Shown here in pieces: positions 11,128 to 62,157 of a stretch of 64,000 nucleotides of DNA. Source of the DNA: Kibdelosporangium persicum (lineage in GTDB: Bacteria; Actinomycetota; Actinomycetes; Mycobacteriales; Pseudonocardiaceae); NCBI RefSeq assembly GCF_013280595.1, contig NZ_JAAATY010000006.1, forward strand, positions 1-64,000. Reading direction: 5' to 3'. The position numbers and the translations under genes were made by a program. The stretch's first letter is position 1. Every line of letters begins with the position of its first letter. The notes below the pieces were generated by a model. The model ran no database searches. It saw only the letters and a program-made list of their open reading frames with translations, and had not been told where the DNA came from.

Positions 11128-11490
11128 GTGGCGACCGTGGAACTGACCGAGGAGAACTTCAACGAGGTCGTGAGTGCGCCGGGGACGGTGCTCGTCGACT
11201 TCTGGGCGTCCTGGTGTGGCCCGTGCCGCATGTTCGCCCCGGTGTACGAGAGCGCGTCGGAGGAGCACGAGGACATCACCTTCGGCACCGTCGACACCGA
11301 GGCTCAGGTCGCGTTGGCACAGGCTTTCGGCATCTCGTCGATCCCCACTCTGATGGCGGTCCGCGATGGTGTTGTCGTGTACGCGCAGCCCGGCGCGTTG
11401 CCCGCGCCCGCGTTGGAGGAACTGATCGGCAAGGTCAAGGATCTCGACATGGACGAGGTCCGTGCCTCGATCGCCAGCGAACAGGCGTAA
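11128..11490 (+). CDS. thioredoxin
   Basis: Cytoplasmic thiol-disulfide oxidoreductase of 120 residues with active site WCGPC (Cys30, Cys33) and the cis-proline segment SSIPTLM. I start at the GTG at 11128, which has AAAGGAGA 5 bases upstream; the longer open frame to 10891 has no family match. It differs from canonical trxA by a slightly longer acidic C-terminal tail. Monocistronic: a 166-bp gap precedes it, and the palindrome at 11509-11558 follows within 20 bp and may end its transcript. Confidence 0.92.
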   Translation: MATVELTEENFNEVVSAPGTVLVDFWASWCGPCRMFAPVYESASEEHEDITFGTVDTEAQVALAQAFGISSIPTLMAVRDGVVVYAQPGALPAPALEELIGKVKDLDMDEVRASIASEQA

Positions 11491-11508: not shown

Positions 11509-11558
11509 TCCTCGTGAGTGGTTATCAGGGTTCTAACGCCGATAACCACTCACGAGGA
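11509..11558. repeat. dispersed palindrome, copy 1 (likely bidirectional terminator)
   Basis: Perfect 18-bp inverted repeat around a 14-nt centre. The left arm begins TCCTCGTGAGTGGTTATC and the right arm mirrors it; the centre contains GGTTCTAAC. The same CCTCGTGAGTG arms and GTTCTAAC core recur near 34805 and 61126. It lies between the ends of the thioredoxin gene (+) and a small minus-strand ORF, so it could stop transcription from both sides. Confidence 0.85.
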
Positions 11559-11744
11559 GTCCTCGGGCAGTCCGGCGACCAGCAGCGCGGGCAGTCCGCC
11601 GACGGTGACACGTAAGGTGATGAACTCGTGGTCGCCCTGGATCACGCGTGGTGCCCGCATCGAATACAGGTCTTCGCCCGGCCGCAGGCGGTACAGGCTG
11701 ACACGTCGGGTGTGCGTGAGATCGGCCAGTCCGGTGAGCTCCAT
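11550..11744 (-). CDS. small hypothetical protein
   Basis: Possible 64-residue protein starting at the ATG at 11744 with AGAGGTG upstream. It has no clear domain; a short basic stretch (THTRRVSLYRLRPGED) is followed by beta-rich sequence ending LPALLVAGLPEDSS. The last residues are encoded inside the right arm of the palindrome at 11509-11558. Its upstream neighbour on the same strand is the frameshifted LuxR-type regulator. I do not recognise a family. Confidence 0.45.
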   Translation of the reverse strand: MELTGLADLTHTRRVSLYRLRPGEDLYSMRAPRVIQGDHEFITLRVTVGGLPALLVAGLPEDSS

Positions 11745-13069: not shown

Positions 13070-13711
13070 TCACCTTCTCTTCGGCAGCACGTCGAAGAGG
13101 TTGAGCGGCGCGGGCGGCGGGAGCGGATGGGCGTTGTCCGCCCGGAAGGCGCTGAGAAGATACGCGACCAGTCGCCGGGACGCGGCCAGGGACGCCTCCG
13201 GGGTGCCGGCGATGATCCCGCTGTTGGCCATCAGCACCAGCGTGACGTCATCGAGGGCGAAGTCCGCGCGCAACTGACCGGCCCGCTTGGCACGGTCGAT
13301 CAGCTCCGTCAACGCCGAGTCGGCGCGAGCTCGTTCGCCGTCGATGTCGAACGACTGCGGGAAGGCCGAGACGAACGCGGCGGTGAAGCCGCGGTCGACG
13401 GCGTGCATGGCGCAGATTCGCTCGATCCCGGTGCACAGGCCGTGCCAGGGGTCGGGATCGGCCAGTGCGTCGTCCAGTATCGACACACATTCGGCGAACT
13501 GGTCCGAGAACACTTCCGTGACCAGCGACTCCTTGGTGGGGAAGCGGCGGTAGAGCGTCGCCATCCCGACCCCCGCCCGCCGGGCGATCGCGGCCATCGG
13601 CACGTCGAGGCCACGGCCGGCGAACAACTCGCGGGCGACCTCGACGATCCGGTCGCGGTTCTGCCGCGCGTCGGCACGCATCCGAGAAGCCTCAGTGCTC
13701 ATCCTTCTCAC
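13070..13711 (-). CDS. TetR family regulator
   Basis: Repressor-type protein of 213 residues or slightly fewer. The HTH (about 20-65) is typical: IVEVARELFAGRGLDVPMAA, then VGMATLYRRFPTKESL. The C-terminal ligand-binding part is all-helical. The start is uncertain: GTG at 13711 gives MRRMSTEAS, and the ATG at 13702 is three codons later. It is divergent from the deazaflavin-reductase-like gene across about 75 bp and probably controls it. The Pro-rich tail (LPPPAPLNLFDVLPKRR) is unusual. Confidence 0.9.
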   Translation of the reverse strand: MRRMSTEASRMRADARQNRDRIVEVARELFAGRGLDVPMAAIARRAGVGMATLYRRFPTKESLVTEVFSDQFAECVSILDDALADPDPWHGLCTGIERICAMHAVDRGFTAAFVSAFPQSFDIDGERARADSALTELIDRAKRAGQLRADFALDDVTLVLMANSGIIAGTPEASLAASRRLVAYLLSAFRADNAHPLPPPAPLNLFDVLPKRR

Positions 13712-31645: not shown

Positions 31646-32389
31646 ATGGATCAGCGAACGGTCGCCGCGGCCGACCAGCTCGGCAAGGTCTACGGAACCG
31701 GCCAGGCGGCCGTGACGGCCCTGGCGGGGGTGTCGGCGCGGTTCCAGCGGGGCGAGTTCACCGCGGTGATGGGGCCGTCCGGCTCGGGCAAGTCGACGTT
31801 CCTGCACTGCCTGGCCGGGCTGGACACGCCGACCTCGGGCAAGGCGTGGATCGGCGGGGTGGACCTCGGCTCGTTGACCGAGGCCAAGCTCACCCGGCTG
31901 CGGCGGGAGAAGATCGGGTTCGTCTTCCAGTCGTTCAACCTGCTGCCCACGCTGACCGCGTGGGAGAACATCGTGTTGCCGCTGTCGTTGGCCGGCGTGC
32001 GTCCGGACACGGCGTGGACCGAGCAGGTCATCGATGCGGTCGGGCTGGCCGACCGGCTCGGCCACCGGCCGTCGGAGCTCTCCGGTGGCCAGCAGCAGCG
32101 CGTCGCCTGTGCTCGGGCGTTGGTCTCGCGGCCGGAGATCATCGCCGCGGACGAGCCGACCGGTAACCTCGACTCCCGTACCGGCGCGCAGATCCTTGGC
32201 TTGTTTCAGATGTGTGCACGCCAATGGGGGCAGACGGTCGTGATGGTCACGCATGACCCGATCGCCGCCGGATACGCCGACCGCGTGCTGTTCCTGGCTG
32301 ACGGACGGCTCGTCGACGAGATGGCGCGGCCGACCGCCGACCGCGTGCTGGACCGGATGCGCCGCTTCGACGCGCAGGCGGTGCACTGA
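31646..32389 (+). CDS. ABC transporter ATP-binding protein (MacB/LolD type)
   Basis: Cytoplasmic ATPase of 247 residues with Walker A GPSGSGKS (43-50), signature LSGGQQQR, and Walker [14 protein letters not shown]. It belongs to the group that powers FtsX-type permeases in antimicrobial peptide resistance, lipoprotein release or macrolide export. The ATG at 31646 has only a weak ribosome site. The stop overlaps the start of the permease gene (TGATG). The divergent two-component system suggests cell-envelope-stress control. Confidence 0.94.
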
Positions 32390-34800
32390 TGTTCCGGATG
32401 GCGATTCGTTCGATCCTGGCTGTAAAAGTCCGTTTCCTGCTGCCGTTGGTGGCCGTCACGCTGGGCGTCGCGTTCGTCTCGGGTTCGCTGCTGTACGGCG
32501 CTTCGGTCCAGGCCACTTTGGATCGTACCCAGCCGGACTTCGCGGTGCAGGTCAGCCCACGGGTGATCACCACGCCGGTGCCCGCGAGCCTGGTGTCACA
32601 GTTGCGCGGCGTGCCCGGTGTCGGCGAAGTACGGCCCGTCGCGGAAGGCCGTGCGTTCATCCTCGACAAGAACGGGTCGCTGGTCGGGCCGCCGGTGCTG
32701 GCCGGTGGCGTGAATTACGACGGTCACCACCGGCTCGTCGGTGGACAGGAACCGGCGTCTTCGGACCAGATCGCGATCGACGACTGGACGGCGAAACGTA
32801 CCGGTTACCAGGTGGGTGATCAGTTCCGTGTCGTCGTCGGCGGGACGGCCCGGCAGGTCCGGCTGGTCGGGATCTTCACTGCCCCGGACGATGCTCGCGT
32901 CGCGCAGGGCGGCACGTTGACCGCGTTTGACGAGGCGACCGCGCGGAACTTGTTCGCCAAGTCGCCGGACAGTTACACGGCGGTCAACCTGACCACGGCT
33001 CCCGGTACGAGTGAGGGCACGCTCGCGGCGAATGTCAGCGCTGTCCTGTCGAGGGACTTCGTCGCCGACACGGCGACGGAGATGACCAAACCGGGCTCCG
33101 ACAACAAACTGACCGAGATCCTGCTGGTGTTCGCCGGTGTGGCGTTGTTCGCGTCGGTTTTCCTCGTGGCCAACACATTCACCATGCTGTCGGCGGCACG
33201 TGCCCGGGAACATGCGCTGCTGCGGGCTGTCGGAGCCGAGCGTCGTTACGTACTGAGGATGGTGCTTACCGAAGCCGTCGTGTTGGGCGTGGTGGCCACG
33301 GTTCTCGGCTATCTGCTGGGGATCGGCGGCGCGGCCCTGTTGAGCTCGCTGTTCTCGGTCACCGACGGGCCACCGGTCGAGTTGCGGGTGTTCGGCGTCG
33401 GCCCGGTTCTCGCCGCGCTCGGTGTCGGCGTGGGCGTGACGGTTCTGGCGGCGTACGTTCCTGCCCGCCGAGCCGGTTCGATTCCGCCGATCGCCGCACT
33501 GCGGACCGGGCTCCCGCCGTCCGGGAAGTCGTTGCGCCGTCGCAACATTACCGGTCTCGTGGTGACCGGTCTCGGCGCGCTAGCCACGGTGGCGGGGTTG
33601 AGTACCCAGGACCTGATCTACTTCGGCGCGCCGCTGTTGCTGATCGGGTTGATCATCCTTACGCCGCTGTTCGGGGTTTGGCTGACCGCGTTGTTGCGGC
33701 GACCGATGACGCGGCTGGCGGGCGTTCGGGGAACGCTGGCCGTGGAGAACACGCGCCGCAATCCGCGCCGGACAGGCGTGACAGCCAGCGCCCTGATGAT
33801 CGGGCTGTCCATTTGCGCCGCTGTGACCGTGCCGATCGCGTCGGTCGCGGCGCAGGACGCGCAGCGTGCGGACACCGGGGATCGTGCGGACATCCGGGTC
33901 ACCGGGATCGATTTCGCCGAGATCGGCCCGGACACCGCGGCCCAGATCGCTCAGCTGCCCGATGTCGCGGCCGTCACGCCGTACGTCCCGGTGAACATCC
34001 AGTTCGGCCGGGACTGGCTGAACGCGGCCGGCGTGAACGCCGCGACGATCGGGGACTTCCTGTCCTTGCACGTCCAGGCGGGCTCTTTGGACCGGTTGGC
34101 CGACGGCATCGCGGTGAGCAGCACGGAGGCCAACCGTCACAACTGGACGGTGGGCAGCGTGGTTCCCGGCAACCTGCCGCTGCCGGTCGTGGCGATCTTC
34201 GACGCGCCTGACGGTTTCCGGTATGAGGCGCTGGTGGACCAGTCCCGAGCGCCTGCGGGAGAGTCACCGTCGACGATCCTGGTCAGGGCGGCGCCGGGGA
34301 AAACCGACAGTCTCAAGGCGGACATCCAGCGCACACTGGACAATCCGACCCTGGTGGTGCGGACCCGGGCGGAGTACGTCGAGGCCGCGGGCGGCGAACT
34401 CGACACCGTGCTGAACGTCCTCTACGCGTTGCTCAGCATCTCGGTGTTGATCGGCGCCCTGGCCGTCGTGAACACGATGACGATGTCCACAATGGAACGG
34501 ATCAGGGAGATCGGCCTGTTGCGCGCGGTCGGTCTCGCCCGTCGTCAGGTCGGTACGATCCTGCGGCTGGAGTCGGTGATCATCGCCGTCCTGGGTGCCG
34601 TGGCCGGACTGGTGGCCGGGTGCGTCGTCGGTGCGGTGGCCGTGCGGAGTCAAGGCGGCATCCCGATCGTCATGCCATGGGACCGGCTGGGCCTGTTCGT
34701 GGTCGTCACGGCCGCGATCGGCATCCTGGCGGCGTTGTGGCCCGCGTGGAAGGCAGCCAGGATCCCGATCCTCCAGGCGGTCCACACCGACACCGACTGA
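32389..34800 (+). CDS. FtsX-like ABC transporter permease
   Basis: Membrane protein of 803 residues with two FtsX-type permease halves. One N-terminal helix and a first extracellular domain (about 40-230) are followed by helices at about 240-355, a short central pair, a second extracellular domain (about 475-680), and three final helices near 685-790. The segment ARAREHALLRAVGAERRYVL repeats in the second half as MERIREIGLLRAVGLARRQV, the FtsX signature. It works with the ATPase next to it, probably as a mechanotransmission-type exporter. A dispersed palindrome follows the stop by 4 bp. Confidence 0.93.
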   Translation: MFRMAIRSILAVKVRFLLPLVAVTLGVAFVSGSLLYGASVQATLDRTQPDFAVQVSPRVITTPVPASLVSQLRGVPGVGEVRPVAEGRAFILDKNGSLVGPPVLAGGVNYDGHHRLVGGQEPASSDQIAIDDWTAKRTGYQVGDQFRVVVGGTARQVRLVGIFTAPDDARVAQGGTLTAFDEATARNLFAKSPDSYTAVNLTTAPGTSEGTLAANVSAVLSRDFVADTATEMTKPGSDNKLTEILLVFAGVALFASVFLVANTFTMLSAARAREHALLRAVGAERRYVLRMVLTEAVVLGVVATVLGYLLGIGGAALLSSLFSVTDGPPVELRVFGVGPVLAALGVGVGVTVLAAYVPARRAGSIPPIAALRTGLPPSGKSLRRRNITGLVVTGLGALATVAGLSTQDLIYFGAPLLLIGLIILTPLFGVWLTALLRRPMTRLAGVRGTLAVENTRRNPRRTGVTASALMIGLSICAAVTVPIASVAAQDAQRADTGDRADIRVTGIDFAEIGPDTAAQIAQLPDVAAVTPYVPVNIQFGRDWLNAAGVNAATIGDFLSLHVQAGSLDRLADGIAVSSTEANRHNWTVGSVVPGNLPLPVVAIFDAPDGFRYEALVDQSRAPAGESPSTILVRAAPGKTDSLKADIQRTLDNPTLVVRTRAEYVEAAGGELDTVLNVLYALLSISVLIGALAVVNTMTMSTMERIREIGLLRAVGLARRQVGTILRLESVIIAVLGAVAGLVAGCVVGAVAVRSQGGIPIVMPWDRLGLFVVVTAAIGILAALWPAWKAARIPILQAVHTDTD

Positions 34801-34804
34801 TCCT

Positions 34805-34852
34805 CCTCGTGAGTGTTTATCCGGGTTCTAACCCTGCTAACCACTCACGAGG
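34805..34852. repeat. dispersed palindrome, copy 2
   Basis: Arms CCTCGTGAGTG (34805-34815) and CACTCACGAGG (34842-34852) are perfect over 11 bp. The inner part is imperfect, but the centre has its own small stem GGGTT-CT-AACCC. It lies between the convergent permease (+) and ceramidase (-) genes and covers the last codons and stop of the ceramidase gene. It matches the copies at 11509 and 61126. Confidence 0.85.
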
Positions 34853-36843
34853 GTGAAGGTGGTGGTTGTGCCGGTGAACGGGGTGATGGCGCCGGTCCAG
34901 CCGTTCTTCCAGTCACCGTTGTGCACGATCCGGTATGTGCCCGGGGGAGTGCCGGCCGGGATCGTCCAGGTGATCGTCGCTTCCGAGTTGGCGATGCCGG
35001 CTCGCTTCCAGTGGTAGCGCGTGGACCAGTCGCCGTCGTCGGCGTGCCGCGTCCAGGTGCCGTCGACAAGGCGTTGCACCTCAAGGAATGTGCCGTTGCG
35101 GTGCAGGTTGTTCTTCGGATGGCCGGTGACGAACACCGCCGTGGCCGTCTGACCGGGCCGGTAGCTCGCGGCCGGCTGGGTCAGGACCTGGCCGAAGCTG
35201 TGTGACGGGTTCTTGTCGTCGAACACCACGCCGGTCTGCAGGTTGATGTCGGTGAACGGGGGTTTGCCCGGCGCCGGGCCCGCGGGCAGTGCGGTCCCGG
35301 CGCGCAGGGATGCCGCGAGTTTGCCGAATTCCTGTTGGTAGGCCGGGGTTGTGTTGCGGCCGAACAGGGTCGAGCCGCCCTCGTACTGCTGGAGGTCGTA
35401 CTCCTCCGGTGTGGTGACGTACTGGCTGTATTCGTTGGCATAGCCCTGGATCAGCACGTGTTCCACCGGAACACCCAGTTCCTGGGCGACACTGCGGCGG
35501 ATGCGCAGCCCGGCGACGATCGTGACCTCGCCGGGAACGGCCACCAGGTGCAGCTGGCCGAGTTTGACGATCTGCAACGGCACGATGTCCGGTGTCGCCT
35601 GCACCATTCCGGTGGGGACGAGTGAGGCCTTCGGGTACTGGCAGTCGCGCAGCCATTGCGGCACTTCGATGTTCAGTGGTTCGAACAGCTTCTTCCACGG
35701 GCTCTGCATGCCTTCGTCGAACCCGGGCAGGGCCGGGCCGTCCTCGACACTGCCCGCCATGGTCGACGCCCCGACGACCCCGGAACACGTGCTGCCCGGT
35801 TTGCCGTCGGTGGTGTACCTGCCGTCCACCGCCACCTTGCTCATGTCCACGAACCGCATCCGGTGGTCGACCGAGCCTGTGATCGCGGTCTGGGGCCCGT
35901 TGTAGATCTCCTGCGCCTTGCGGTTCTGCCGTTCGCCGATGATCCGGGTGTTCTCGACCTCGTCCTCGGTCGGGCCGGAGCCGGGCTTGAGGTTCAGGTT
36001 CGGCGACATGTCCCCGGCGTTGGTGTTCGGGAACGCCGCGACGAACCCCGGCCGGTTGTCCAGATAGCGCACGCCTTCGTCGTCGTGCTCCCACTGGTAG
36101 GCGGCGTAGCCCTTGTTGTCCGGGCTGATCAATGTGTTCGCGTTGGTCATCGACGTGTTGTGCGTGGCGAACCACGTGATCGCGCCGACATCCGTCGACC
36201 CCTGCCTGAGCCGCAGGACTGTCATGGCCGGGTCGATGGCGTTCGGGAAGAAGGCCTTGTCCGGGGCCGCGTTGGCGTTGAACGCCACCCGTGACCGGTT
36301 CACGCTCGCGTTGGTCAGCTCACCGCGGCCGATCGACAGGGAGCCGGGCTTGAGGTCGTCGTGCGCCTCGGTGATCGACTCGACGATGCCGTCGGTGATC
36401 GCGTTGAGCGTCTGCGGCTGCATGCCGAGGATGGAGAGGTTGTACGCGAGGTTGTGTGAGTAACCGCCCGGGCCCGCGTGGGTGTGCGTGGCGGAGAGGA
36501 GCACGTTCTCCTTGGTGTAGAGGTCGCCGTACCGCGGCTTCAGCTTGGCCAGCACGGCTTCCTGAACGGCCCGGAAGATCATCGCGAGGTCGGCGTTGAC
36601 GTACGCCACCCGCTTGCCGCTTGCCCGGTCGACCACGACGTACGCGCGGGACCGCTGGCGCTGGTGGATGCCGGTGGTCTTCTGGTCGAACTTGGAGTAG
36701 CCCATCATGCCGTTCTCGGCGGCGGGCCCGGTGACGTCGGAGATGCCGCGTCCGACCAGGTACGGTTCCGGCGCCGCGGTGGCCGGCAGCCCGGTGAACA
36801 CCAGTGCCGCCGCGAGGACCGCCGGCATGCCCGACCTTCGCAT
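34837..36843 (-). CDS. secreted neutral ceramidase
   Basis: Exported amidase of 668 residues that would split ceramide into sphingosine and fatty acid. A short signal peptide (about 1-24, ending PATAAPE) is followed by the catalytic domain: ATHTHAGPGGYSHN carries zinc-binding His residues, and TWFATHNTSMTNANTL matches the family segment with the active-site Ser. The C-terminal immunoglobulin-like domain (about 510-668) is typical of neutral ceramidases. The ribosome site GGAGGAGCG precedes the ATG. Bacteria seldom make ceramide, so a host or environmental lipid is the likely substrate. The final codons overlap a dispersed palindrome. Confidence 0.92.
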   Translation of the reverse strand: MRRSGMPAVLAAALVFTGLPATAAPEPYLVGRGISDVTGPAAENGMMGYSKFDQKTTGIHQRQRSRAYVVVDRASGKRVAYVNADLAMIFRAVQEAVLAKLKPRYGDLYTKENVLLSATHTHAGPGGYSHNLAYNLSILGMQPQTLNAITDGIVESITEAHDDLKPGSLSIGRGELTNASVNRSRVAFNANAAPDKAFFPNAIDPAMTVLRLRQGSTDVGAITWFATHNTSMTNANTLISPDNKGYAAYQWEHDDEGVRYLDNRPGFVAAFPNTNAGDMSPNLNLKPGSGPTEDEVENTRIIGERQNRKAQEIYNGPQTAITGSVDHRMRFVDMSKVAVDGRYTTDGKPGSTCSGVVGASTMAGSVEDGPALPGFDEGMQSPWKKLFEPLNIEVPQWLRDCQYPKASLVPTGMVQATPDIVPLQIVKLGQLHLVAVPGEVTIVAGLRIRRSVAQELGVPVEHVLIQGYANEYSQYVTTPEEYDLQQYEGGSTLFGRNTTPAYQQEFGKLAASLRAGTALPAGPAPGKPPFTDINLQTGVVFDDKNPSHSFGQVLTQPAASYRPGQTATAVFVTGHPKNNLHRNGTFLEVQRLVDGTWTRHADDGDWSTRYHWKRAGIANSEATITWTIPAGTPPGTYRIVHNGDWKNGWTGAITPFTGTTTTFTLVSG

Positions 36844-59144: not shown

Positions 59145-61061
59145 TCAGGCTCCGGCGAGTTGCCAGCCGGTGAACGCCCCGCTGGGGCCGGCGGTGGTCT
59201 GGCGTCGCTCGTACAGCCGGCAATCGCCGCCGACGATCAACAGGCGCACCAGCCCCGCGTTGTCCAGCACGGCCGCGGGCCCGATCTCGCAGTAACCGCC
59301 GAGGTCCTCCCAGGTGCCGAACTGCCCGGTCGGTCCCTGCCTGCTCATGCTGATGCCGTAGTTGTCGTTGCGCGCGAACGCCAGCACGCGCGGGCTGGTA
59401 CCGCCGGTCCGTACGCCGAACGCCGGGCCGACGCCGCCGTGGCCGCCGATGTGGGCCAGCCCGGACCATGTCCCCCCGGGTGTCTGCTCCCGGCTCGTGC
59501 CGATCGTTCCGTCGCCGTGCTCACGGATGATCAGTATCGCGGTGTCGTTGTTCTGCAGCACCGGACTGGGCGTGCCGACCGTCTCCACCGCGGGGAAGTT
59601 CGGGTTCACGCTCGTGCCGCCGCCCGGCGGCTGGGTCCAGTGCTTGATCCAGCCGTTGCTGTCGGCGAAGAGGTTCAGCAGCCCGGTGCTGCTGTTGATC
59701 ACCGTCGGCTGGCCGATCACGTCCGGTCCGCCGCCCACGTCGTACCAGCCGTCGAACACGCTGCCGTTGGGCGTCGTCTGGAAGGCGTTGCTGATCCCCC
59801 CGGACGCGTTGAGCACGTACAGCTCAAGGCAGTTGTCGGTGTTGCGGCCGAAACACGGCACACCGAGCGCCCCGTCGGGAGCGCCGATCGAGGTCCACGC
59901 GCCGAATCCGGCACCCGGCGCGGTCTGCCTGGTGGTCTTGATGTCCCCGGCGAGCAGGTCGAGCACGGCCAGTTGGACGGTGCCGTCGGCGTTGAGTTCC
60001 ATGGCGACGCCGGGCGCGAAGAGACCGGAGATCAGGGTGGCCGGAGCCGACCATGTCGCGCCGCCCGCGTTCTGCCGCCACGCGATGACGTTGTCCCCGC
60101 CGACGACGACGGCGTACAGCGCGCCTGTCCCGTCCTTGATCACGAACGGCTCGGTCACCGGGAAACGCTGGTAGTTGCGTGCCAGGTTGACGTCGAACCC
60201 GTCACCGGTCAGCGGATCGAGCGCCTTGTACTCGAAGTAGGCGGCCCGCTTGGGCTCGTACAGCGGGTTGAAGACGTTCACCGGGGAGACGCTGGTGTTG
60301 TAGCACCGGTAACGGAACAACAGGCACTGGCCAGTCGCGTCCGGACCTTCGTAGGCGCGGACCGCGAGCTGGGCGTGGTAGGTCGCGGCGATGTGGTCGA
60401 TGTGGTCGGCCCAGTACCGGCCGTCCGGTGCCGGGTCCTGAATCCGGATGGTCGTCGGCTGGTACATCGTCAGCAACTCGACCAGGACGTTGTGCAGTTC
60501 CTGGCCGGTGTAGTGCTGGACCTGGGTGACCGGGCCGGGCTCCGGCACGATCGTCGGCGAGCTGAAGCCCGGGTCGTTCCACAGGTTGAGCAACGCGTCG
60601 GGGTGCAGGGCGTCGCCACCGTCCGGCAGGTTGATCCACAGCAGTTGGATGTGCTGGGCGCCGTTGAGGGTGTTGCGCTCGATGATCCGGCCGGCCACCG
60701 TCATGGTGTCGATGGCCCAGTCGCTGGGCACACCGGCCAGCGAGGCGTAGGCGTTCCTGGTTCCCTGGTGCAGCCGCGCGGAGAGCTGCTCACGGGTGAG
60801 CCCGCCTTCGGGCCATCCGTTGTTCTGGTCCGCGGTCAGGTAGATCGTCCGGACCGGCAGGCCCGCCGTGATCGCCGGTTGCAGATCGGGGTTGATGAAC
60901 AGCAACTCGTCGTCGGAGTGCGCGAGGATCGTGACGTAGCTGCCGGTGCTCGGCGCCGCCAGCGCCCGGTTGCGGTCGCGCGGCCGGGTGACGTCCTTGG
61001 CCCACGACGGAGCCTTGAGGTCGACCGGAACCCGTCTGTTGTTGCCGGGTGGGTGTGGCAT
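59145..61061 (-). CDS. PIG-L family deacetylase fused to a propeller-like lectin domain
   Basis: Protein of 638 residues. The N-terminal PIG-L zinc domain (about 40-255) carries AHSDDE (His48, Asp50, Asp51) and HIDH (His220, Asp222, His223), as in enzymes that de-N-acetylate GlcNAc derivatives. The C-terminal part (about 290-638) has about six beta-rich repeats with patterns such as GTWSGLAHIGGHG and GTWEDLGGYCEIGP, resembling PLL/fucose-lectin-type propellers. No signal peptide is visible in the first 40 residues, unusual for a surface-sugar enzyme. It is divergent from the 2-MIB genes, with a dispersed palindrome between. Confidence 0.85.
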   Translation of the reverse strand: MPHPPGNNRRVPVDLKAPSWAKDVTRPRDRNRALAAPSTGSYVTILAHSDDELLFINPDLQPAITAGLPVRTIYLTADQNNGWPEGGLTREQLSARLHQGTRNAYASLAGVPSDWAIDTMTVAGRIIERNTLNGAQHIQLLWINLPDGGDALHPDALLNLWNDPGFSSPTIVPEPGPVTQVQHYTGQELHNVLVELLTMYQPTTIRIQDPAPDGRYWADHIDHIAATYHAQLAVRAYEGPDATGQCLLFRYRCYNTSVSPVNVFNPLYEPKRAAYFEYKALDPLTGDGFDVNLARNYQRFPVTEPFVIKDGTGALYAVVVGGDNVIAWRQNAGGATWSAPATLISGLFAPGVAMELNADGTVQLAVLDLLAGDIKTTRQTAPGAGFGAWTSIGAPDGALGVPCFGRNTDNCLELYVLNASGGISNAFQTTPNGSVFDGWYDVGGGPDVIGQPTVINSSTGLLNLFADSNGWIKHWTQPPGGGTSVNPNFPAVETVGTPSPVLQNNDTAILIIREHGDGTIGTSREQTPGGTWSGLAHIGGHGGVGPAFGVRTGGTSPRVLAFARNDNYGISMSRQGPTGQFGTWEDLGGYCEIGPAAVLDNAGLVRLLIVGGDCRLYERRQTTAGPSGAFTGWQLAGA

Positions 61062-61125: not shown

Positions 61126-61177
61126 CCCCTCGTGAGTGTTTGTCAGTGTTCTAACCCTGACAAACACTCACGAGGGG
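61126..61177. repeat. dispersed palindrome, copy 3
   Basis: Perfect 21-bp inverted repeat: arms CCCCTCGTGAGTGTTTGTC + AG and their complement, with a 10-nt centre TGTTCTAACC. It is the longest of the three copies. Unlike the other two it lies between divergent genes (PIG-L and 2-MIB operon), so a pure terminator role does not fit well. Confidence 0.88.
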
Positions 61178-61308: not shown

Positions 61309-62157
61309 ATGACCACTGTCCAGTCCACCGAGGGACCGGTGCTACGCAGCGACTACCAGCGCTCCATCGCCGCGTACTGGAACAAGGAGAACGATCCGGT
61401 CAACATCAGGCTGGGCGAGATCGACGGTCTGTACCACCACCACTACGGCATCGGCGACTACGACCCGTCCGTGCTGCGGGCCGGCGACCAGGCCATCATC
61501 GCGGAGATGCACCGCCTGGAGACCGCGCAGGCGAACGTGCTGCTCGACCACCTGGGTGACATCCAGCCGGCGGACCGGTTGATGGACGCGGGGTCCGGCC
61601 GTGGCGGCACCAGTTTCATGGCCAACCAACGATTTGGCTGCCAGGTCGACGGCGTGAGCATCGCCGAGCAGCAGGTCACGTTCGCCAACGACCAAGCACG
61701 GCAACGCAAGGTGGACGACCGCGTGCGGTTCCACTTCCGCAACATGCTGGACACCGGGTTCGGCACCGGTTCGATGCGGGGCGTCTGGACCAACGAGACG
61801 ACGATGTACGTCGACCTGCACGTACTGTTCCGCGAGTTCGCACGGCTGCTGGAGTACGGCGGCCGGTACGTGTGCATCACCGGGTGCTACAACGACGTGA
61901 CCGGCGGGCGTTCCCGCGCGGTGAGCCAGATCGACCAGCACTACATCTGCAACATCCACCCGCGCAGCGAATACTTCAAAGCCCTGTCGGACAACGGGTT
62001 CGTGCCGATCACCGTGGTCGACCTGACCCCGGCGACGATCCCGTACTGGGAACTGCGGGCGCGGTCCTCGGTCGCGACGGGCATCGAGGACACGTTTCTC
62101 ACCGCGTACAAGGAAGGCAGCTTCCACTACCTGTTGATCGCGGCCGACCGAACCTGA
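61309..62157 (+). CDS. geranyl diphosphate 2-C-methyltransferase
   Basis: SAM-dependent enzyme of 282 residues that methylates geranyl diphosphate at C2, the first step of 2-methylisoborneol biosynthesis. The SAM motif I is LMDAGSGRGGTSFMA (about 90-104). Characteristic parts are IDGLYHHHYGIGDYD near the start and FHFRNMLDTGFGTGSMRGVW. AGAGGAG lies upstream of the ATG. It is followed by the synthase gene after 16 bp. The cyclic-nucleotide-binding (EshA-like) gene often found with this pair is not next to it. Confidence 0.95.
   Translation: MTTVQSTEGPVLRSDYQRSIAAYWNKENDPVNIRLGEIDGLYHHHYGIGDYDPSVLRAGDQAIIAEMHRLETAQANVLLDHLGDIQPADRLMDAGSGRGGTSFMANQRFGCQVDGVSIAEQQVTFANDQARQRKVDDRVRFHFRNMLDTGFGTGSMRGVWTNETTMYVDLHVLFREFARLLEYGGRYVCITGCYNDVTGGRSRAVSQIDQHYICNIHPRSEYFKALSDNGFVPITVVDLTPATIPYWELRARSSVATGIEDTFLTAYKEGSFHYLLIAADRT

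Follow-up and report, generated by a model that had tools for sequence, protein, structure and literature searches.

In Kibdelosporangium persicum and other Pseudonocardiaceae, the 3' ends of genes are marked by a family of 46-52-bp hairpins whose members, judged from their sequence and position, probably serve as bidirectional I-shaped terminators without a U-tract, a reading that we favour with modest confidence. We put a terminator-like role first because the family is strongly tied to gene 3' ends in K. persicum as well as in other genera. We infer that the element acts on transcription: the transcribed stem of about 20 bp would form right behind the stop codon, where it would end or protect the transcript, and it would do so from either side when it stands between convergent genes. 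A copying process would both produce the copies and preserve their likeness, either as short-patch conversion among them or as template switching from one copy to another, accompanied by the occasional insertion of an element at a gene end.

Palindromes of the analysed stretch

The window, i.e. the whole stretch of 64,000 nucleotides that was analysed, had been described in the initial annotation as containing three related palindromes, with perfect arms of 18 and 21 bp in copies 1 and 3 and outer arms of 11 bp in copy 2. All three were found again, and they are listed here with the genes that surround them.

11128..11490, + strand: thioredoxin gene, ending 20 bp ahead of the copy 1 arm
11509..11558, no strand: copy 1 palindrome, arms TCCTCGTGAGTGGTTATC..GATAACCACTCACGAGGA, perfect over 18 bp
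11511-11556: 46-bp family element of copy 1
11530-11537: core GTTCTAAC of copy 1
11550..11552, - strand: TGA in the right arm of copy 1, terminating the ORF 11550-11744 (- strand, 64 aa)
32389..34800, + strand: FtsX-type permease gene, converging on copy 2
34805..34852, no strand: copy 2 palindrome, outer arms of 11 bp, middle arms imperfect
34806-34851: 46-bp element of copy 2
34825-34832: core GTTCTAAC of copy 2
34837..34839, - strand: TAG within copy 2, stop codon of the alkaline ceramidase gene
34837-36843, - strand: alkaline ceramidase gene, on the opposite side of copy 2
59145..61061, - strand: PIG-L domain protein gene, left of copy 3
61126..61177, no strand: copy 3 palindrome, arms perfect over 21 bp
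61129-61174: 46-bp element of copy 3
61148-61155: core GTTCTAAC of copy 3
61309..62157, + strand: methyltransferase gene, right of copy 3, found in all six relatives searched

Folding of the three palindromes on both strands gave z-scores from -4.5 to -9.0, and in none of the six folds (three copies, two strands each) was any of 200 shuffles as stable. The core GTTCTAAC occurs three times in the window, each time within a palindrome, against an expectation of 0.25 and with three occurrences reached in 0 of 100 shuffles. No Rfam family matched the palindromes at the gathering score; when copy 1 was searched at E 10, the best sub-threshold matches were generic long hairpins, including Actino-pnp at 25.1 of the required 47.7 bits. 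The sole Rfam match of the window at the gathering score is a tRNA gene (2168-2251, - strand).

Independent gene calls agree with the earlier statement on the neighbours: genes converge on copies 1 and 2 and diverge from copy 3. It should be noted that the right-hand 'gene' of copy 1 is the 64-aa ORF, which has no Pfam match at E 1e-5 and is possibly not a gene. An IclR gene near copy 1 is present in three of six relatives, with 89-90% identity, and in one of them (G065) it is followed by the same thioredoxin gene; the palindrome is absent from the fetched flanks of the relatives that have the IclR gene. As for copy 3, it stands where the likeness to the relatives stops. Upstream of the methyltransferase gene, five of the six relatives have a different stretch, by eye the end of a co-directional gene, in the place of PIG-L, and no copy of the palindrome is present at this place in any of the six relatives' pieces. 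The divergent setting of copy 3 may be the product of a rearrangement.

At copy 2, the ceramidase ends in ..TFT-LVSG in the window, its last four codons (LVSG) and its stop codon lying inside copy 2, and the ends in the relatives are ..TFT-VG (G131, G065 and G093) or VN (G163, i.e. Kibdelosporangium philippinense). In G131, G065, G093 and G027, where the same two genes converge, the gap is occupied by a hairpin of unrelated sequence, with a folding energy of -31 to -46 kcal/mol, a z-score of -3.8 to -4.9 and, in each case, none of 200 shuffles as stable. Of all single observations, this swap of hairpins speaks most clearly for the element acting as a terminator hairpin.

Extent of the family

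The pattern of exact arms, CTCGTGAGTG-N(8-38)-CACTCACGAG, matches 307 times in the 10.35-Mb genome of K. persicum, and the reversed control pattern 0 times. The dispersed family proposed in the initial annotation thus stands, though its scale of three copies does not. The search for arm pairs, extended to related genomes as had been suggested there, detected exact-arm copies in 73 of the 297 Pseudonocardiaceae genomes drawn and in none of 245 others sampled from the rest of the class, the same order contributing 21 of these. All eight Kibdelosporangium genomes carry copies (307, 302, 89, 86, 53, 12, 5 and 3). A covariance model, which allows looser outer arms and was applied to Pseudonocardiaceae only, recognized the family in at least 41 of 100 genomes and at least 22 of 46 genera. 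In a separate scan of named records, Amycolatopsis, Qaidamihabitans, Prauserella, an Actinophytocola MAG and Kibdelosporangium are among the matches listed.

The plasmid and phage collections searched gave no family match. One IMG/VR contig of 24,552 bases carries a copy at positions 29-74, near the contig end, at a distance of about 65 bp after an ORF resembling, by eye, a tyrosine integrase, and the arms of this copy are like those of genome G002, which belongs to another Pseudonocardiaceae genus. Two arm halves are mixed in many of the copies listed for G002 (e.g. GGCAAACAG with GGCATTGAG), leaving a short internal mismatch; the halves seem to be exchangeable in this genome.

Structure and pairing of the element

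The element was studied in a readable sample of 1.26 Mb out of 10.35 Mb (contig C1, part of contig C2 and the window), which contained 80 relaxed matches; 70 of them, 46 bp long with at most one mismatch per arm, were kept, and the other 10 were discarded as chance-like or of the wrong length. The element is a palindrome with a fixed length of 46 bp, composed of an outer arm of 10 bp, CTCGTGAGTG, a variable middle arm of 9 bp and the core GTTCTAAC, which flanks a two-base centre (CT or AG) and is present on one strand in 70 of 70 copies. Beyond the 46 bp the information content drops to near background over a distance of about 15 bp, the position profile of the 70 copies being C-rich in the left flank and G-rich in the right. 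The median folding energy is -35.8 kcal/mol.

Pairing between the arms was evaluated in an alignment of 40 rows from many genomes, which were hand-picked mostly from the exact-arm lists, so that the conservation of the outer arms in it is partly due to the choice of rows. Across these rows 95.8% of the cells pair, and changes on both sides of a pair amount to 179, compared with 64 ± 5 in shuffles; the covariation score is 0.49, compared with 0.06-0.12 in slid controls. Pair counts and pair-type counts alone show no excess over shuffles in the same alignment. The double-sided changes confirm the earlier observation that pairing is kept through arm changes, and they support its interpretation as selection or gene conversion for structure. 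Among the 70 copies of K. persicum, pair 11/36 co-varies, being paired in 62 against an expectation of 46. Pairs 17/30 and 19/28 are at chance, with 22 and 31 of 70 paired; as the latter two vary freely, pairing is not needed at every position. In the flanks beyond the 46 bp, pairing is no greater than position preferences predict, and co-variation is absent.

Compensatory arms could also belong to a double-stranded DNA site for a dimeric protein, such as a roadblock or nucleoid protein, in which the arms would co-vary through half-site specificity and not through pairing. The fixed 46-bp length and the invariant core agree with such a site, as do the absence of a G-U excess and of an orientation bias of the core, and the fact that the arms track the genome more than the site (see below). 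We nevertheless consider it quite unlikely, considering that a single genome can harbour two or more arm types and that the letters of the middle arm are almost free across genera while pairing is maintained. In addition, the half-sites do not stand alone in the K. persicum sample, where full elements account for 121 of 123 exact arms and elements interrupted by insertion sequences (IS) for the other two, though seven unpaired arms, two of them ends of an NF041680-type IS, were present in the relatives' stretches. The same count bears on another idea, that the element would serve in the uptake or exchange of DNA in the manner of Neisseria: a conserved 10-mer that forms inverted pairs at gene ends and has species dialects finds a parallel in PMC1852404, but this 10-mer is unpaired only in the two IS-interrupted elements of the K. 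persicum sample. The uptake-sequence idea, very improbable when the arms are not found singly in that sample, was rejected.

Two further observations concern the surroundings of the element. The motif CCC[AT]G[CG]T[CA]A occurs 18 times in register directly beside the palindrome in K. persicum C1 and C2, where it has 10 other intergenic and 98 genic occurrences; with one mismatch allowed and the core oriented as CT, it is on the right side of 19 of 70 copies and on the left side of 8 of 70. It is perhaps the remnant of a longer ancestral element. A hairpin with related arms but of another length, CCCCCTCGTGAGTGGTTCGG..ACTACCTCACGAGGGGG, is present in G131 (about position 13523 of locus L102), G163, G065 and G027; unlike family members, it lies within a stretch of more than 60 bases that is identical in the four relatives, and in G131 it has no Rfam match at E 0.1.

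Position relative to genes

The gene calls used here derive from a home-made codon model. The 70 copies of the 1.26-Mb sample comprise 36 between convergent, 20 between co-directional and 14 between divergent genes, with none inside a gene, whereas the 1121 background gene pairs are 206 convergent, 708 co-directional and 207 divergent, and convergent gaps make up 16% of the intergenic bases. A facing stop codon lies within 60 bp of 54 of the 70 copies, compared with 22.6% of intergenic positions. At those copies 84 facing gene ends were counted, each at most 33 bp away, and at 19 of the 84 the TGA of the arm is itself the stop codon. In the co-directional setting, the upstream stop is nearer than the next start for 19 of 20 copies.

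The same placement is seen in a sample of named loci, which rests on 80 loci out of at least 98 stretches with matches and in which 79 of 85 copies could be classified, six being dropped as too close to the locus end. Here 43 copies are convergent, 34 co-directional and 2 divergent; a facing stop is within 60 bp of 71 of the 79 (50 of 57 in other genera and 21 of 22 in Kibdelosporangium), and 31 of the 120 facing ends use the TGA of the arm as their stop codon.

Several findings count against the terminator reading. Sixteen of the 70 copies are more than 60 bp away from any facing gene end, which bears out the earlier remark that termination alone is insufficient to explain the family. A U-tract is lacking, with a run of four or more T at only 8 of the 84 facing ends, and an RNA-strand signature was not found in 19 co-directional copies, where G-U and A-C mismatches on the sense strand number 7 and 7 and the core shows no preferred direction (8 CT, 11 AG). 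Moreover, the hairpin is not obligatory: a stem score of at least 10 is reached in 29 of the 103 element-free convergent gaps long enough to be scored, and G131, a close relative, has 12 copies against 86 in its sister G065. In a 200-kb stretch of G131 there are 3 strong hairpins of any sequence, versus 16 in the K. persicum stretch.

One copy in a divergent gap precedes a LanKC (class III lanthionine synthetase) gene at C1:582350-585094 of K. persicum, about 75 bp upstream of its start.

Inheritance, gain and likeness of copies

Synteny with four relatives was followed over 200-600 kb. Out of 65 copy-containing gaps on C1 of K. persicum, nine are comparable with K. philippinense, the other 56 lacking one of the two orthologues (48) or being rearranged (8), and at all nine the K. 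philippinense gap holds a copy as well, with the core in the same orientation at seven. Two comparable gaps have a copy solely in K. philippinense and 155 are copy-free in both. Turnover between these two genomes therefore looks slow.

At the nine shared sites pair 11/36 is T-A (6), T-C (1) or G-C (2) in K. persicum and G-C in all nine copies of K. philippinense. Over the 18 variable positions the mean identity is 0.78 between orthologues (one pair being identical), 0.82 and 0.78 between paralogues and 0.72 between random cross pairs, in a matrix that omits species with fewer than four copies and to which named loci may contribute duplicates of copies from fetched stretches. As the identity between orthologues is not above that between paralogues, it seems that rewriting affects the inherited copies jointly, albeit incompletely. 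Copies are alike within genomes, and the arms track the genome more than the site, as in concerted evolution. On this comparison, which covers a small number of orthologous sites, the family probably multiplies slowly and evolves in concert.

The comparison with G065 gave one shared copy, one copy only in K. persicum, two only in G065 and 73 gaps without any. There is also a clean lineage-specific gain: a G065 copy, of that genome's own arm type, is in a 122-bp co-directional gap that measures 69, 69, 71 and 71 bp in four relatives, i.e. the G065 gap is longer by 51-53 bp. In an unrooted tree of 45 proteins, G131 (12 copies) and G065 (86 copies) are joined, with 96% identity, K. philippinense (302 copies) is next to them and K. 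persicum is further out. The copies at C1:565976 and C1:587135 are common to K. persicum and K. philippinense and absent from G131 and G065, a pattern that would point to losses in the G131/G065 line or to double gains. In the gap at C1:587112-587203, the K. philippinense palindrome lies where a gene remnant breaks off, and the counterpart in G131, G065 and G027 is 1.4-2.0 kb long and palindrome-free; the arrival of the palindrome here may have been accompanied by a deletion.

It is also conceivable that these features compose a genome-wide 3'-boundary code, made of several hundred inherited hairpins whose arms would change pairwise in each lineage, through a candidate factor or through hairpin-templated copying, and whose outer CTCGTGAG arm and core would be read by the machinery with no REP transposase involved. 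We advance this idea tentatively and regard it as rather improbable.

Mobility

The gain in G065 is also what would be expected of a non-autonomous mobile palindrome, similar to a MITE or a REP, for which the bias to 3' ends would reflect mere tolerance, other insertions having been purged, and which would have no terminator role. A copy number that varies from 3 to 307 within one genus, the presence of two arm types within one genome and the stop codons in the element, which make an insertion just before a stop almost harmless, would all fit this explanation. We judge it doubtful, however, since the placement at the stop codon is tight, all nine comparable copies are common with K. philippinense and unrelated hairpins fill the copy 2 gap in the relatives. 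In addition, target-site duplications, searched at 114 copies for lengths of 2-6 and 8 bp and offsets of 0-6, gave no clear excess over shuffled flanks, and the recent G065 insertion has none.

No copying enzyme was found for the family. The initial annotation had considered a REP-like hairpin and an associated transposase, but PF01797 (Y1/RAYT transposase) has 0 matches in the K. persicum genome, and it matches in 1 of 13 copy-rich genomes (at least 32 copies) versus 5 of 13 copy-poor ones (at most 12 copies). An origin of the REP/RAYT type was accordingly rejected.

Insertion sequences are themselves found within palindromes. An NF041680-type transposon, whose transposase scores 387.8 bits (below the curated 440), has 13 full-length, near-identical copies in K. 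philippinense (for example C2:518151-519767); such near-identical copies occur in this one genome out of 26, other matches having at most 41% identity over long stretches. All 11 copies read are in palindromes of the TTTTCGCC/TTTTGGCC type, one with a shortened right half, and a 6-bp duplication (GCCGGT or ACCGGC) is present at 8 of the 11 insertions. The palindrome as a MITE of this IS was rejected, because palindrome halves flank the IS on both sides in 11 of 11 cases. In K. persicum, the end of one and the same IS481-family element directly follows the GTTCTAACCC of a half palindrome, behind the core, at C1:315 and C1:92016; the assignment at C1:92016 rests on a 42-residue match (E 2.5e-10), and there the other half of the palindrome was not found by eye.

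If the terminator reading is true, antibiotic-producing actinomycetes would hold a large natural collection of interchangeable hairpins for 3' ends, which combine a fixed length and conserved ends with arms specific to the species. For Amycolatopsis and Kibdelosporangium it would provide a list of candidate terminators acting in both directions, and it would allow asking by what means a dispersed repeat keeps its likeness at inherited sites with no known transposase. In one case, the repeated element stands where relatives have unrelated terminator-like hairpins.

Relation to known elements

No description of this palindrome family was among the matches listed in the literature searched, most subscription papers lying outside its scope, and the main texts of surveys of REPs and hairpins, where searched for these names, do not name Amycolatopsis, Kibdelosporangium or Pseudonocardia (for one of them this holds for Amycolatopsis only).

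The REP literature describes hundreds of extragenic palindromes per genome with a species-specific sequence (PMC2817692), insertion of IS elements into REPs (PMC1525189) and a hairpin of 20-40 bp with a GTAG/CGTC tag at its foot (PMC3733652). The family is similar in being a high-copy extragenic palindrome (307 copies, 0 of 70 sampled copies inside genes) that receives IS insertions. Unlike REPs and BIMEs as portrayed there, it has no Y1_Tnp in K. persicum, consists of a single 46-bp unit, longer than 20-40 bp, and is placed at stop codons; the GTAG/CGTC tag is absent from the hairpin foot in the 70-copy position profile. The likeness to MITEs lies in a short inverted-repeat element with many copies and one clean insertion, polymorphic between relatives, and the difference in the lack of a target-site duplication. 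The sole IS met with palindrome-like ends is the NF041680-type one, itself inserted into palindromes in the 11 of 11 copies read.

Uptake sequences occur largely singly, whereas the arm in the K. persicum sample does not, the two IS-interrupted elements being the only exceptions. In Neisseria and Pasteurellaceae, according to PMC1852404, uptake sequences have a thousand or more occurrences and their inverted pairs at 3' ends form terminators, and it is these pairs that the family resembles, with a short conserved arm in an inverted pair at 3' ends.

With regard to terminators, the element differs from the canonical intrinsic type in having a stem without a U-tract. The nearest parallel would be TRIT, a conserved-sequence hairpin at actinomycete gene ends, reportedly given by Gardner in 2011 (RNIE) as a conserved-sequence terminator model of Mycobacterium tuberculosis. 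By this description the family is like TRIT, being a conserved-sequence hairpin at gene ends; beside it, the arms here are species-specific, and the exact pattern did not detect the family outside Pseudonocardiaceae. TRIT is mentioned in PMC3526491.

The sequence of I-shaped terminators generally differs from gene to gene. With these U-less terminators of high-GC actinomycetes the element shares a strong stem near the stop codon and the absence of a U-tract (54 of 70 copies), and 353 structured 3' ends of the 'HS-U-lack' class have been measured in Streptomyces clavuligerus, as reported in PMC8269248. What sets the Pseudonocardiaceae hairpins apart from I-shaped terminators is the recurrence of a single sequence family, in hundreds of copies that appear to evolve in concert.
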